From: Vicinamibacteraceae bacterium
GTDB lineage: Bacteria; Planctomycetota; Phycisphaerae; Phycisphaerales; UBA5793
Length of the DNA stretch: 64,000 nucleotides
Assembly (NCBI GenBank): GCA_011525805.1
Contig: WYBR01000109.1
Location: 124,001-188,000, forward strand
Direction of reading: 5' to 3'
In this document: positions 27,682 through 34,255 of the stretch, one piece after another
Layout: each line of letters starts with the position of its first letter
How positions within the stretch are numbered: the stretch's first letter is position 1
Notes under the pieces: generated by a model
Database searches by the model: none
Told to the model about the DNA's origin: nothing
Seen by the model: only the letters and a program-made list of their open reading frames with translations
Made by a program: the position numbers and the translations under genes

Positions 27682-29076
27682 ATGCCCCGCCGCAAGCGTC
27701 CCATCCCGACCTGGCTCAAGAGGATTCTGCTCACGCCCACCGTCGAGTTGAACCGCTGGCAGTACTTCGTGCGCTTCGTCGCCGAACTCATTCGGACCGG
27801 AATGAAGCAGTTGCAGGAGGACCGGGCCGGGCAGATGGCTGCGGCCCTGGCGTTCCGGACGATCTTCGGCCTGGTGCCGGTGAGCGTGATCGGGCTGCTC
27901 ATCTTCCGCCTGCTCGGGGGCATCGATCGCTTTGAGTCGTTCATCACCGACCTGCTCTCCGCCGCGCAACTTGATGATCTGAAGATTCCCCAAGCCGCCG
28001 CGACGGAAGGGGCGGAAGCCGACGCCGTTTCCGTCGTCGAATGGCTTACGGGTCTCATCCGCCAGATCAACGAAACGGTCAACTTCGAGTCGATCGGCAT
28101 CATCGGCCTGCTGGTGCTCATCTGGGCGGCCATCGGGCTGATGACCACGATCGAGCGCTCCTTCAACACGATCTGCCGGGCGTCGGAGAACCGGCCGCTG
28201 TCGCGCCGCGTGCCGCTCTACGGGTTCACGGTGATCATCGGCCCCGGTCTGCTCTACCTCAGTTTCTTCCTCGACCGGCGCTTCGAGGAGATCGTGACGC
28301 GCTTCGCCGACAACCTTGGCCCGCTGGCGGCTTCGAGCATCGTCGCGGCTGGCATCGTCACCTCGCTCGGCTCGGCGTGGCTCTTCATCATGCTCCTGTA
28401 CACCTCGGTGCCGAACACGAAGGTCAAGTGGTCCGCCGCGGCGATCGGCTCGCTCATCACTGCCATCTGCTGGTCGCTGGGCGCCCGCGCGCTGGGGGCG
28501 TATATCACGACGATCTTCGGGATGAGTTCCAACTATTCGGTGCTTTACGGCACGCTGGGGCTGATCCCCGTCTTTCTCTTCTGGGTCTACGTCATGTGGC
28601 TGCTCGTCCTCTTCGGCCTCGAACTGACTTCGGCCCTCCAGGCCGTTGGAGTGCGGATGGTGCAGTCGATCCCCGACCGGCCGCGGATTCCGCCCGTGAT
28701 GGATCCGGCGCTGGTGGTGCCGATGCTGCGTGTGGTCGGGCAGCGCTTTGAGCAGGGCCAGTCGACCGACGCACGGCACATCATGCAGGCGACGCACATC
28801 AACGAGCGGGCCGTCGAACTGGTCCTCGCCGCATTGGCCAAGAGGGGGCTGCTGCATCGCGTCGAGCCGAGCGACCGGCCGACGTTCACCCTCGCCCGCC
28901 CGCCGGCCGGCGTCGCGCTGCGGGAGGCGATTGAATGCACGCAAGACCTTCTGGGGTCGGAGGATGCGATCGGAGCCGATTGGCCTCTGGTGGCGAGCCT
29001 GCGGGAGGCACAAGTGAGGGCGCTTGGGGCCCGGACGCTGGCGGATGTTCTTCCGGGCGGGGCAAAAACGGCGTAG
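27682..29076 (+). CDS. YihY/virulence factor BrkB family membrane protein
   Basis: A 464-residue protein with an N-terminal cytoplasmic stretch, about six transmembrane helices between residues 50 and 325, and a 130-residue C-terminal cytoplasmic part. Family features include AAALAFRTIFGLVPVSVIG in the first helix and YSVLYGTLGLIPVFLFWVYVMWLLVLFG near the end of the membrane domain. The C-terminal part (HINERAVELVLAALAKRGLLHRV) resembles a winged-helix DNA-binding segment, as in some BrkB proteins annotated as RNase BN-like in the past; that enzyme activity is now assigned to a different gene. Function uncertain. Confidence 0.85.
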   Translation: MPRRKRPIPTWLKRILLTPTVELNRWQYFVRFVAELIRTGMKQLQEDRAGQMAAALAFRTIFGLVPVSVIGLLIFRLLGGIDRFESFITDLLSAAQLDDLKIPQAAATEGAEADAVSVVEWLTGLIRQINETVNFESIGIIGLLVLIWAAIGLMTTIERSFNTICRASENRPLSRRVPLYGFTVIIGPGLLYLSFFLDRRFEEIVTRFADNLGPLAASSIVAAGIVTSLGSAWLFIMLLYTSVPNTKVKWSAAAIGSLITAICWSLGARALGAYITTIFGMSSNYSVLYGTLGLIPVFLFWVYVMWLLVLFGLELTSALQAVGVRMVQSIPDRPRIPPVMDPALVVPMLRVVGQRFEQGQSTDARHIMQATHINERAVELVLAALAKRGLLHRVEPSDRPTFTLARPPAGVALREAIECTQDLLGSEDAIGADWPLVASLREAQVRALGARTLADVLPGGAKTA

Positions 29077-29096: not shown

Positions 29097-29124
29097 TTGA
29101 CCCTGCGGGCAGGCCGACTATCCT
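29097..29124 (+). promoter_or_regulatory. Sigma70-type promoter of the nusA leader RNA
   Basis: TTGACC (29097..29102) and TATCCT (29119..29124) are separated by 16 bases. The predicted start is about 29131, 330 bases before nusA. Confidence 0.55.
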
Positions 29125-29130
29125 TGGGTC

Positions 29131-29380
29131 TGGACTGTAGTGGCGTTTTTCGGACTGCCAGCGCGGGAGTACGCGGATGCACGGTTGGGAAGAACCCAGT
29201 GCGTGGTGAGCAGCGAGTCAACTCGCACGCGGCCCGCACGCCCGGACTCGGGTATTGCGAAGGGCGCGTCATGACCTGAGGCACTGCCACAGGTTGGGTT
29301 GACCGGTTGCGAGGCGCGGCGTCGCCCCGCGATCGACTACAGGCCACAGGCGCTGCGGATGCGCCGGTGGTTTTTTGTTT
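29131..29380 (+). ncRNA. Candidate structured leader RNA or small RNA upstream of nusA-infB
   Basis: The 384-base stretch 29077..29460 has no credible gene but contains a promoter, several nested hairpins and an intrinsic terminator. Visible stems are GCAC..TGGG-AAGAA-CCCA-GTGC (29179..29202), GCGT..GCGAG-TCAA-CTCGC-ACGC (29201..29230), CCCG-GACT-CGGG (29241..29252) and GCGAGGCG/CGCCCCGC (29309..29330). The first two share two bases and could be alternatives. It would be about 250 nt. It could be a separate sRNA or an attenuated leader controlling nusA-infB-rbfA. I could not match it to tmRNA, SRP RNA, RNase P RNA or a tRNA. Confidence 0.4.
29344..29380 (+). terminator. Rho-independent terminator in the nusA leader
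   Basis: CCACAGGCGC and GCGCCGGTGG pair over 10 bp with one mismatch around a 7-base loop, followed directly by TTTTTTGTTT. It lies 80 bases before the nusA ATG, so transcripts from upstream must pass it to reach nusA. Confidence 0.75.
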
Positions 29381-29460
29381 GACCGGATGGATGGGCCGGG
29401 CCGCGAAGCACGGCGCAACTCACAACTGAATAACAACTCGGCGAAAGGACAATCAGCATC

Positions 29461-30879
29461 ATGAACCAGGAAACCCTCCGCATCATCGACTCGATCGCGC
29501 GCGACCGCAAGATCGATCGCGAAGCCCTCTTCCGCGACATCGAGACGGCGATGATCTCAGCCGCACGCAAGCACTTCGGCTCACTCGACACCGACGAGTT
29601 CCGCTGCGCCATGGACCGCTTCAATGGCGAGATCCGCCTCTGGAGACGCTTCCCTCCCGCCGAAACCGATCCCGAGACCGGCGAACCAGTGGGCGAGTGG
29701 ACGGAAATCGAGATCGACCTGCGCGAACTCGGCCGCATTCCCGCCCAGACCGCCAAGCAGGTGATGATTCAGCGCTTCCGCGAGGACGAGCGCGAGGCGC
29801 TCTTCGAGGAGTTCTCCAAGCGCGTCGGCGAGATGATCACGGGCACCGCCCAGCGCTACGAAGGCGGGGCGCTGGTGATCCAGATCGACCGGGCCGAGGG
29901 CTTCATGCCCCGAAGCGAGCAGATTCCCGGCGAGAACTTCCAGCCTGGCGACCGCGTGCGCTGCCTCATCCTCGACGTGCGCGACATGGGCAACCAGGTG
30001 AAGATCGTGCTCAGCCGGGCGCATCCCGACTTCATCCGCCGCCTCTTCGAGGTGGAGGTTCCGGAGGTCAGCGAGCGGATCATCGAGATCAAGGCGATGG
30101 CGCGCGAGCCGGGGTTCCGCACCAAACTCGCCGTGTCGTCGATCGACTCGAAGGTGGACGCGGTGGGCGCCTGCGTCGGTGTGCGCGGCAGCCGCATCAA
30201 GAACATCGTCGATGAACTCGGCGGCGAGAAGATCGACATCGTCCGCTGGAACGACTCGAGCCAGATTCTCATTCAGAACGCGCTCAAGCCGGCGGAGGTC
30301 AAGGACGTCTCGCTGTGCTTCGAACTCGGCCGGGCGACGGTCGTGGTCGAGGAAGACCAGTTGAGCCTGGCGATCGGCAAGCGCGGGCAGAACGTGCGCC
30401 TTGCAGCGCGGCTGACGGGCTGGGACGTGGACATTCTCACCCCCACGGAGTACGCCAAGGGTCTCGAGATTCTCGTCGAGACGCTGCGGCAGGTGGAGGG
30501 CGTGACGGAAGAGCAGTTGGACCGCCTCGCGGCACTGGGCATGGTGAGCGTCTTCGACGTCGAGGAAGTTGGGGCCGAGGTTCTGACCGAGGAACTCGAA
30601 GTGACGCCCGAGCAGGCGGAGAAGATGGTCGAACTCGCCGCCGTCCGCGCCAAGGTCGTCGCCGAGGAGCAGCAGCGTGAGAAGGAAGAAGAAGCCAAGC
30701 GGCGCGAGCAGGAGCAGCGGCTGGCCGCGTCCGTGCTGGAAGGGCCCCTTGGCGAGGCGGGCGAGGCCCCGCCGCAGCCCATCGGCGACGAGGAGCATGG
30801 GGCCGCCCAGGCCGCGACGATTCTCGGCCTCGGCCAGCGCTCGCCCGCGCCATCCGGCGCCAATGAAGGGGGAGCCTGA
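29461..30879 (+). CDS. nusA: Transcription termination/antitermination factor NusA
   Basis: A 472-residue RNA polymerase-associated factor that modulates pausing, termination and antitermination. The N-terminal domain binds the polymerase; an S1 domain spans about residues 135-200 ([20 protein letters not shown]). KH1 and KH2 follow, with [22 protein letters not shown] and [20 protein letters not shown] helix-hairpin-helix segment lies near 345-400. The C-terminal 70 residues are charged and low in complexity and replace the AR domains of E. coli NusA. AAAGGA is upstream of the ATG. rimP, which normally precedes nusA, is absent; the leader RNA occupies that place. Confidence 0.96.
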
Positions 30880-30957: not shown

Positions 30958-33774
30958 TTGGCTAAGAAGATTCACCAGATCGCAAAAGAACTCGGCCTCA
31001 AGAGCAAGGAACTCGTGGCTCGCTGCGAGGCCGAGGGCATTCCCAACATCGTCAACCACATGTCCACGGTTTCCGCGGGCCTTGAGCAGACGATTCAATC
31101 GTGGTACGCCGGCGGAGCCGTGGAGACGGAGACCGAATCCTCCGACGAAGCCGGGGCGCTCACCGCGGTGGTGGCGCGCAAGACCGCCAAGAAAGTCCGC
31201 GCCACCGCGAAGAAGAAGTCGGCGACGCAGCAGACGGAGACGGTTGACGAAACGGCCTCGATGCAGAAGGCGCTCGAAGAGACGAGGAAGATTGCCAAGA
31301 AGGGGGCGGCGGAATCCTCGGAGGAGGTCATCCGCCGAGTCGAGGCGCAGACCGCCGCGAACGAGGCCGCCGCCGCGCCGCCGACCGTCGAACCCGAGCA
31401 GGCGCAACCGAGAATCCCCGTCGAGTCGGCCGCGCTGGCGCCGGCCGCTTCGGCGGCGCCGCCTCCGGCGATGGCCCCCGAGGAAGAGCAAGTCGCCGCC
31501 CAGGCCCCGGCCCGCCCGGCGCCCGCCCGGCGCCGCGCCGTTGCGGTCCCCAATGTTCCCAAGCGACCCGAAGAAGTGGCGCCTGCGGGACCGAAACTCG
31601 AAAACGTCCAGTCGCCCGCCCGCCTCTCCGGACCGAAGGTCGTGCGCATCGAAGAGGCCGAGGTCGTTGATCGCCCGCGGCGCCGCACGCTCGGAGAAGG
31701 CGGCCCGGGAGGGCGAGGCGGACCGGGCGTGTCGAGCCCTGCCGAAGCGCCTGCGGGCGGAGACGTCTCGCGTCGCAACACGCGGCGCAAGAACCGAAGC
31801 GGCCGCGAAGGCCGCAGTGCCTCCGCCGAGGGGCCGGGCGAGCGGCCGGGCCGCCTGCGCAACTGGGGTCAGCAGGATCTGCTCGAGCGCGAGGAGCGCC
31901 TTCGCGGCGCGCACGGCTACATCAAGACCGTTCGACGGGACGCGACGCGGCCCGACCACGGGGGCGAGCGGGCCAAGTCCGCCGTCGAGACCGGCGGCGT
32001 CGTTCGCATTCAGGAGCCTTTCTCCATCCGCGACCTCAGCGCCGCCACCGGCGTTCAGGTGAATCAGATCGTTCGCGCCATGATGAAGAAGGGGATCATG
32101 CAGGCCAATCCGAACGCCGGCATGCCCGTCGATCTCGCCGTCGATCTGATGCTCGAGCACAACATTGAACTCGAGGTCGAGGAGAAGAAGTCCGCCGTTG
32201 ACGTCGTCACGGAGGAGTTTGAGAAGCGCGAGGCGGTGGATGTCCAGCCTCGCGCCCCCGTGGTGGCGATCCTCGGCCACGTGGACCACGGCAAAACTTC
32301 CCTCCTCGACGCGATCCGCCAGACGAACGTCGCGGCGGGCGAAGCGGGGGGCATCACGCAGCACACTTCGGCCTTCCGCATCAACGTCCGCGCCGGCGAC
32401 GACGAGAAGACCATCGTCTTCCTCGACACGCCCGGCCACGAGGCCTTCACCGCCATGCGCGCCCGCGGCGCGCAGATCACCGACATCGTCGTGCTCGTCG
32501 TGGCCGCGGACGACGGCCTGATGCCGCAGACCATCGAGTCGATCAACCACGCCCGCGCCGCCGGCGTGCCCATCGTCGTCGCTCTCAACAAGATCGACAA
32601 GCCCGAGGCGACGGACTCCAACATTCAGCGGATCTACGGCCAACTCGCCGAGTACGAACTCTCCCCCATCGAGTGGGGCGGCAAGACGGAAGTCGTCAAG
32701 ACCTCGGCCACGAAGCGCATCGGCATTCAGGATCTGCTCGACACGCTCGACTTCCAGGCCCAGACGATGGAACTTCAGGCCGACGCCCGCGGCCCGGCGC
32801 GCGGCACGGTCATCGAGGCGCGGATGGTCGAGGGCCGCGGACCCGTCGCCAACGTGCTCATCCAGGACGGCCGCATCAAGGTCGGCGACTGCCTCGTCAT
32901 CGGCCGGGCGTACGGCCGGGTGCGCGACATGGTGGACGATCGCGGCAACCGGCTCAAGGAGGCCGGACCCTCCACCCCGCTGGAGATTTCCGGCATCAGC
33001 CTCGTGCCCGATGCGGGCGACCGGTGCTACGTCGTGTCGAGCCTGCGCAAGGCGGAAGAGGCGGCCGAGCAGCGCGTGGCGCAGGAGCGCGAGCGCGCTC
33101 TCGCCGCTCCGAAGGTCACCCTCGACAACATCTTCACTCAGTTGAAGGGAGCCGACCGCAAGGAACTCAACCTCGTCGTCAAGGCCGACGTGCAGGGATC
33201 CGTCGAGACGCTCAAGCGCTCGCTCGAGGACATCTCGACGGAAGAACTCCAGATCCGCGTGCTTCACGCGGCCGTCGGCGGGATCAACGAGTCGGACGTT
33301 CTGCTGGCGGAGACCTCGGGCGCGATCGTGCTCGGGTTCCACGTCATCGCCTCGGCGCGGGCCCGCGAACTGGCCGAGGCGCGCGACGTCGAGATGCGGA
33401 CCTACCAGGTCATCTACGAACTGCTCGACGAGGTGCGGCAGGCGGCGTCGGGTCTGCTGGCGCCCGAGATCCGCGAAGAGGTGCTCGGTCACGCCACGGT
33501 GCGCGAGGTCTTCAAGATCTCGAAGGTCGGCATGGTGGCGGGCTGCTACGTCACCGACGGCACGATCGAGCGCAACGCCCGCATCCGCGTGACGCGCAAC
33601 GACATCGTGGTCGAGAACAACCGCGTCCTCGAGCAACTCAAGCGTTTCAAGGACGACGCGCGCGAGGTGCGCAGCGGCCAGGAGTGCGGCATGAAGATCG
33701 AGGGCTACGACGACATCAAACCCGGCGACATCCTCGAATGCTACCGAATGGTCGAGATCAGTCGGAAGATCTAG
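30958..33774 (+). CDS. infB: Translation initiation factor IF-2
   Basis: A 938-residue GTPase that places initiator fMet-tRNA on the 30S subunit and promotes subunit joining. The N-terminal IF2N module ([21 protein letters not shown]) is followed by a 300-residue Ala/Pro/Glu/Arg-rich linker. A second IF2N-like segment lies near 350-400. The G domain has G1 GHVDHGKT at 440, G3 DTPGHEAF, G4 NKID and G5 SATK. Domains II, III and IV follow, with [17 protein letters not shown] and [19 protein letters not shown]. The start is TTG 30958 with GAGGAGC upstream. The order nusA-infB-rbfA is the classical one. Confidence 0.96.
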
Positions 33775-33814: not shown

Positions 33815-34255
33815 ATGAGCCACCGTCGCGAACAACTCGCCTCCGTGCTCCGCCGCGCCGTGCAGGGCGTCCTCACGCGCGGGCTGAGCGATCCGCGAAT
33901 CCGAGGCCTGATCACCGTCACCGAGGTCGAGGTCTCGGGCGACCGGCGCGACGCCATGGTGCGCGTCTCGATCCTGCCCGCGGAGCAGCAGTCGGCGACG
34001 TTTCAGGGTCTTTGCGCCGCGACGCTGCGCGTCCAGAAACTCGTCAACGAGCAACTCGACGTGCGTCGGCCGCCTCACATCCGGTTCCAACTCGACGAGC
34101 GCCTCAAGAAGGAGGCGGCGGTGCTTTCGGCGATCCGTCAGGCCGTCGCCGACCTGCCCCCGGGCGGGGCAGAGGACGATCCTCGAGGGGAGTTTGAGAC
34201 TCTCGCCGACGCGGATGCGGCAGCGCCGCGGCCGCAGAAAGAGGCGTCCGACTGA
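33815..34255 (+). CDS. rbfA: Ribosome-binding factor A
   Basis: A 146-residue KH-fold protein needed for 30S subunit maturation and 16S rRNA 5'-end processing. Motifs are LRRAVQGVLTRGLSDPRIRG, TEVEVSGDRRDAMVRVSIL and RRPPHIRFQLDERLKKEAAV. The last 40 residues are acidic and variable. It lies 40 bases after infB; a short stem (CGGCGG-CCT-CCGCCG, 33780..33794) is in the gap. A TATCGC nine bases before the ATG is a poor match to the -10 pattern seen elsewhere, and the gene is probably co-transcribed with infB. Confidence 0.9.
   Translation: MSHRREQLASVLRRAVQGVLTRGLSDPRIRGLITVTEVEVSGDRRDAMVRVSILPAEQQSATFQGLCAATLRVQKLVNEQLDVRRPPHIRFQLDERLKKEAAVLSAIRQAVADLPPGGAEDDPRGEFETLADADAAAPRPQKEASD

Follow-up and report, generated by a model that had tools for sequence, protein, structure and literature searches.

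The genes for NusA and translation initiation factor IF2 are preceded in this genome by a short region with a promoter and a terminator of its own, which raises the question of what such a region does immediately upstream of nusA. The initial annotation had described a promoter, several hairpins, two of them mutually exclusive, and a T-tract terminator in front of nusA-infB-rbfA, had noted that rimP is absent, had matched the RNA to no known family, and had proposed either an attenuator sensing NusA or the state of translation or an independent small RNA (sRNA). We analyzed this region in the window (the whole stretch of 64,000 nucleotides) and in related genomes. The locus is framed by the following features.

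29097 to 29124, plus strand: sigma-70 type promoter TTGACC-16-TATCCT, exact; its hexamers are invariant in the genus and it is present in most leaders of the order
29343 to 29380, plus strand: intrinsic terminator, a hairpin GCCACAGGCGC...GCGCCGGTGGT followed by a T-tract
29461 to 30879, plus strand: nusA (TIGR01953, E 4.3e-105; Pfam)
30958 to 33774, plus strand: infB, encoding IF2 (TIGR00487, E 3.4e-208)
33815 to 34255, plus strand: rbfA (TIGR00082; PF02033)

Between 28000 and 31000 this promoter is the sole site of its kind (0.2 expected from shuffles), and it would place the transcript start near 29131. Upstream of it, a gene for a YihY/BrkB-family membrane protein, recognized by profile matches, ends at 29076. 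The terminator ends 80 nt before the nusA start, and no promoter-like site was found between the two; thus, nusA and infB seem to rely on read-through of the terminator for their expression. The gene identities were confirmed by the TIGR and Pfam profiles, and the absence of rimP also held, since a search of the whole genome for RimP (PF02576) was negative, with the same search positive in 10 of 14 control genomes. Named homologues place the genome in the order Phycisphaerales. We take the region to be the 5' leader of nusA-infB-rbfA, a structured RNA predicted at about 250 nt.

No known RNA family accounts for this leader. Rfam searches of the window and of the leaders of 40 relatives returned nothing usable at gathering or at permissive thresholds, and the 6S RNA model (RF00013) gave no match in the genome at E 10 (positive in 8 of 14 controls). 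The plus strand from 29130 to 29380 folds at -119.9 kcal/mol (z -2.5; 4 of 200 shuffles were equally good), but a similar score was obtained for the minus strand, so fold energy alone is no evidence, and we dropped it as a stand-alone proof of a structured RNA. Evidence for structure and function was sought in relatives. The leader is present before nusA at 83–87% identity in four other genomes of the genus, and the promoter hexamers and the terminator are nearly letter-identical among them. Beyond the genus, nucleotide similarity searches returned chance fragments only, and a covariance model built from the five genus members matched the regions before nusA in relatives only in part; therefore, the NusA protein was used to locate the gene in 59 genomes of the order, whose upstream DNA was then read directly. 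Throughout Phycisphaerales the sequence drifts but the architecture of the leader stays.

The most unusual element of this architecture is a very short open reading frame (ORF). The initial annotation had overlooked two ORFs in the leader, each preceded by a Shine-Dalgarno (SD) sequence.

29164 to 29176, plus strand: SD region of ORF1 (CGGGAGTACGCGG), with the SD GGGAG
29177 to 29209, plus strand: ORF1, 10 codons, MHGWEEPSAW-stop
29259 to 29268, plus strand: SD region of ORF2 (GAAGGG)
29271 to 29279, plus strand: ORF2, a two-codon ORF ATG-ACC-TGA (ATGACCTGA), that is, a start, one sense codon, and a stop

An SD-preceded two-codon ORF beginning with ATG was found in 39 of the 59 genomes, compared with 1.0 in shuffles (maximum 4 in 100 shuffles), and the count rose to 46 when GTG and TTG starts were admitted; every other ORF length occurred in at most 7 genomes, being far rarer save for peaks that resemble ORF1. 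These 59 genomes had suggested ORF2 in the first place, so a second set of 50 genomes, with mostly a single genome per genus, was used to test it. In this independent set the two-codon ORF was observed in 30 leaders with ATG only (0.67 in shuffles) and in 41 with ATG, GTG, or TTG (2.6 in shuffles, maximum 6), compared with 3.0% of equally sized real windows at genomic loci within the order. The order of promoter, ORF2, and terminator is fixed across the leaders of Phycisphaerales. Over 100 leaders, the start of ORF2 is ATG in 80, GTG in 10, and TTG in 10, the stop is TGA in 73, TAG in 16, and TAA in 11, and the second codon takes 27 forms. The start, the second codon, and the stop vary but the frame stays, so it is the frame that is kept and not the letters; judged from these upstream regions, ORF2 is conserved as a reading frame, and such variation is the mark of translation. 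Thus, a reading frame of two codons, far under annotation thresholds, is nevertheless conserved across an order. The anti-SD sequence CCTCC is intact in 16S rRNA genes of the same genus, family, and order, and no 16S gene was found in the assembly itself.

Families f8, f11, f12, f17, f19, f20, f21, f23, and f24, which belong to other orders of the class, have mini-ORFs of one to three codons at this place; in the f9 and f22 leaders that were read there was none, save for one far-upstream match in f9. A start-stop ATGTAG in f7 and f16 was not counted, as it falls within the end of an upstream coding frame. Two leaders of genus g24 (L081 and L088) do not contain the two-codon ORF, and a longer frame appears to end at its place. 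Read-through of the ORF2 stop codon into the terminator was considered and rejected, as frame 0 is not open more often than the other two (48, 61, and 56 of 84).

The stop of ORF1 is TGA in this genome and TAG in the four other genus members, with no indels inside, and elsewhere in the order ORF1 mostly spans 8–10 or 14–16 codons. The ORF1 peptides of family f2 (e.g., L084, L095, L237, and L242) share a C-terminal pattern, x-His/Asn-x-Arg/Trp-stop; an AW-stop ending is also seen in the genus of this genome, and a GAL-like ending in family f6. These C-terminal patterns could reflect a constraint on the peptide or on the RNA.

We then asked how these ORFs are connected with the terminator by the fold of the leader, in which the following elements were identified.

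29132 to 29142, plus strand: 5' strand of helix P1 (GGACTGTAGTG); the pair 9-213 changes from A-U to U-G in one genome
29335 to 29345, plus strand: 3' strand of helix P1 (GACTACAGGCC), adjacent to the terminator foot and overlapping it
29268 to 29303, plus strand: hairpin P2, with ORF2 in its 5' arm
29304 to 29335, plus strand: hairpin P3, with two pairs changed on both sides within the genus

Within the genus, RNAalifold reported one pair in P1 and two in P3 in which both partners have changed. Across the order, pairing by construction had to be avoided; thus, we compared the duplex energies of cognate strand pairs with those of pairs swapped between genomes, after removal of row and column means. 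The terminator, which served as the positive control, gave a z of -12.9; P2, in which ORF2 pairs with the strand downstream of it, gave -6.7; and P1, in which the leader upstream of ORF2 pairs with the strand at the terminator foot, gave -10.0 overall, with p <=0.0002 in families f3, f5, and f6, 0.004 in f2, and 0.05 in f1. The initial annotation had named a lack of conservation or covariation in relatives as grounds for rejecting its reading, but both were present, in the identity within the genus and in these three helices. In a sliding scan the 3' strand of P1 was located at -9 to +1 of the terminator core, with adjoining windows near 0. A separate test of P1 against shuffles gave z below -1.64 in 20 of 60 leaders of the first set and 8 of 36 of the independent set, where 5% is expected, and in 4 of 40 for a control strand.

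P1 and the terminator share bases at the terminator foot and would compete for them. Of 67 leaders, 62 pair the first terminator-core C in P1 and 40 pair the second, counts that duplex optimization may exaggerate, and the terminator stem uses both of these Cs in 65. The mutually exclusive hairpins of the initial annotation thus find a partial counterpart at the terminator foot, although the exclusion is not strict, for in the minimum-energy fold of this genome P1 and the terminator coexist side by side. A deeper pairing of the leader with the 5' arm of the terminator was weak on the whole (mean z -0.4; no difference from shuffles; z -2.7) and was therefore replaced by P1. In several f6 genomes the 5' strand of P1 is the SD sequence of ORF1, for example GGCUUGAGGU with ACCUCAAGCC in L108, and in f2 and f5 it lies inside ORF1 (L084, L092, L242, and L246), so a ribosome there should block P1. 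Over the order, the position of this strand with respect to ORF1 varies.

The effect of a ribosome was modeled by equilibrium folding, in which a ribosome was placed on either ORF and the cost of freeing the terminator arm was computed. A ribosome at the ORF1 start shifted this cost by -4.8 to -9.5 kcal/mol in seven f6 genomes (L089–L091, L100, L101, L108, and L110) but not overall, and in the genome studied here a ribosome on ORF1 or ORF2 had no effect in the model. On ORF2 the median shift was -0.02 kcal/mol, less than in control windows, and a simple steric switch operated by the ORF2 ribosome is thus unsupported at equilibrium. The step from ORF2 to the terminator, which equilibrium folding leaves unexplained, is the weakest in the scheme; the effect of ORF2 may be kinetic, through polymerase pausing or ribosome-polymerase contact.

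We propose that the leader attenuates transcription of nusA-infB in cis in response to the engagement of ribosomes, plausibly to their initiation, and we put the probability of this reading at about 0.58. A short ORF with a ribosome-binding site upstream of an intrinsic terminator, as predicted here, is a feature of leader-peptide attenuators, and ORF2 has the form of a two-codon minigene (SD, start, one sense codon, stop). Of the functions that had been suggested initially, the sensing of the translation state fits best with two ribosome-binding ORFs across the order. RNA polymerase would start near 29131, transcribe the leader with its two short ORFs, and then either stop at the terminator at 29343–29380 or continue into nusA and infB, the terminator presumably being leaky and regulated. 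Complete P1, for which covariation was observed, would deny the terminator its lowest pairs and so act as an antiterminator, and ribosomes on ORF1 and ORF2 would tip the balance between the two. A ribosome on ORF2 would perform initiation, one elongation step, and termination, and nothing else; its occupancy, with that of ORF1, should report the efficiency of initiation, which depends on IF2, the infB product. Under good initiation the P1 domain would be disturbed, the terminator favored, and NusA and IF2 lowered; under poor initiation P1 would stay intact and polymerase would pass.

Initiation is named as the measured quantity solely because ORF2 is so short and IF2 is encoded downstream. Leader-peptide attenuators known so far sense elongation trouble, such as a missing aminoacyl-tRNA, antibiotics, or specific peptides. 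We extend the proposal only tentatively to a class-wide initiation sensor, in which a start-NNN-stop ORF and read-through into infB would report IF2-dependent initiation and close a homeostatic loop on IF2 and NusA; this extension is possible but less probable than the attenuator itself. If true, the conserved two-codon ORF in front of infB would be a naturally occurring sensor of little else than initiation, and would offer an account of how bacteria without RimP adjust IF2 and NusA to translation.

The most serious alternative is autoregulation by NusA, in which NusA sets termination here, as has been proposed for the widespread rimP leader (Rfam RF01770; Naville and Gautheret 2010), and the role of the short ORFs would be confined to holding ribosomes close to polymerase or hindering Rho. 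In E. coli the nusA-infB operon is repressed by NusA, and among predicted attenuators the rimP leader is the most common (PMC2965389). Conservation of the terminator, GGCCACG/CGTGGCC, moreover goes beyond what base pairing demands, and a second conserved element lies between the terminator and nusA.

29422 to 29432, plus strand: ACAACTGAATA box, conserved in part of the class

With one base left open, this form occurs in 11 of 59 leaders of the order and 10 of 42 of other orders, in no shuffles, and in none of 63 nusA upstream regions from outside Phycisphaerae. The box is often repeated and is kept in families without ORF2. The sole other exact ACAACTGAATA in the genome (L314; G000:C117:43597-43607, minus strand) lies just upstream of a trpE-like gene. 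The box is somewhat like NusA boxC RNA, but rRNA leaders do not support a boxC reading, as six of them from five relatives contain no such box. The absence of the box from rRNA leaders also counts against NusA autoregulation, as does the lack of any RF01770 match at gathering score in the window, in the genome, or in the leaders of 40 relatives, although this model is narrow, a single one of 14 control genomes scoring over its cut-off. Autoregulation by NusA would also leave the two-codon length of ORF2 unexplained, and we consider it doubtful, if still the strongest competitor of ribosome sensing.

An independent sRNA, acting in trans and located before nusA by chance, was the other function proposed initially, and the RNA has what it would need: its own promoter, a strong terminator, and a defined product predicted at about 250 nt. 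However, the element always stands before nusA in the examined genomes, which favors a role in cis; no second similar copy was found elsewhere in the genome; nusA would be left without a promoter-like site; and beyond the genus the architecture of the leader outlasts its sequence. It is improbable that an independent sRNA is the whole story, and we give it little credence, although an additional role as an sRNA is possible. About as improbable is that ORF2 acts as a minigene through peptidyl-tRNA drop-off or mRNA protection and not through attenuation. ORF2 has the same SD-ATG-NNN-stop form as a two-codon ORF that raises txe expression in cis (PMC8708949), but it lies 33–125 nt upstream of the terminator in the leaders of the order and not beside the start of the next gene, and the diversity of its second codon (27 forms) also disagrees. 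The faintest possibility is that a conserved RNA motif, such as a protein-binding hairpin, happens to read ATGNNNTGA and thereby gives rise to the two-codon ORF: ATGACCTGA and its hairpin are invariant within the genus and ACC is the commonest second codon, but start, second codon, and stop vary yet remain a start and a stop, the SD-to-start spacing peaks at 5–8 nt over 100 leaders, and ORF2 lies in a stem in some leaders and in a loop in others.

Attenuation by ribosome sensing thus remains our preferred reading, and it can be set against known systems. The rimP leader resembles the present one in being a predicted attenuator with a terminator in the leader of an operon that carries nusA and infB (PMC2965389). 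However, rimP leaders precede rimP-nusA-infB, their terminator is GGGc/gCCC, and most of them show no antiterminator, whereas here rimP is absent from the genome, the terminator is GGCCACG/CGTGGCC, and two short ORFs and a covarying P1 are present; membership in that family also fails the Rfam covariance-model test. Outside Phycisphaerales (families f8–f24; e.g., L289, L302, and L312), the terminator reads GTGGG...CCCAC-T7, like the published rimP-leader hairpin by eye, which suggests from sequence likeness that the Phycisphaerales terminator is perhaps a rewritten rimP leader. The E. coli metY-rimP-nusA-infB leader likewise carries terminators (t1 and t2) before a NusA/IF2 operon and is subject to NusA autoregulation, but it contains the metY tRNA gene and rimP, and a two-codon ORF is not described there (PMC6511841). 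Salmonella mgtCBR (PMC3641672) and the trp and his leader peptides share short ORFs upstream of a terminator and alternative pairing. In contrast to these, the second ORF here has two codons with no bias to one amino acid, and the genes behind the leader encode general transcription and translation factors. The lambda bar minigenes are two-codon ORFs of the same SD-start-codon-stop form as ORF2. The axe-txe minigene mg2 also consists of an SD, a start, one codon, and a stop (PMC8708949). Both act on the translation of the next ORF or on tRNA, whereas the present ORF keeps this form across an order and precedes a transcription terminator. The open-access literature yielded no description of this leader, and a prior description is possible in subscription papers, which lay mostly outside the search. 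As far as we found, two-codon ORFs had been known as minigenes and not as a conserved part of an attenuator, and it is this ORF that constitutes the new part of the nusA-infB leader.
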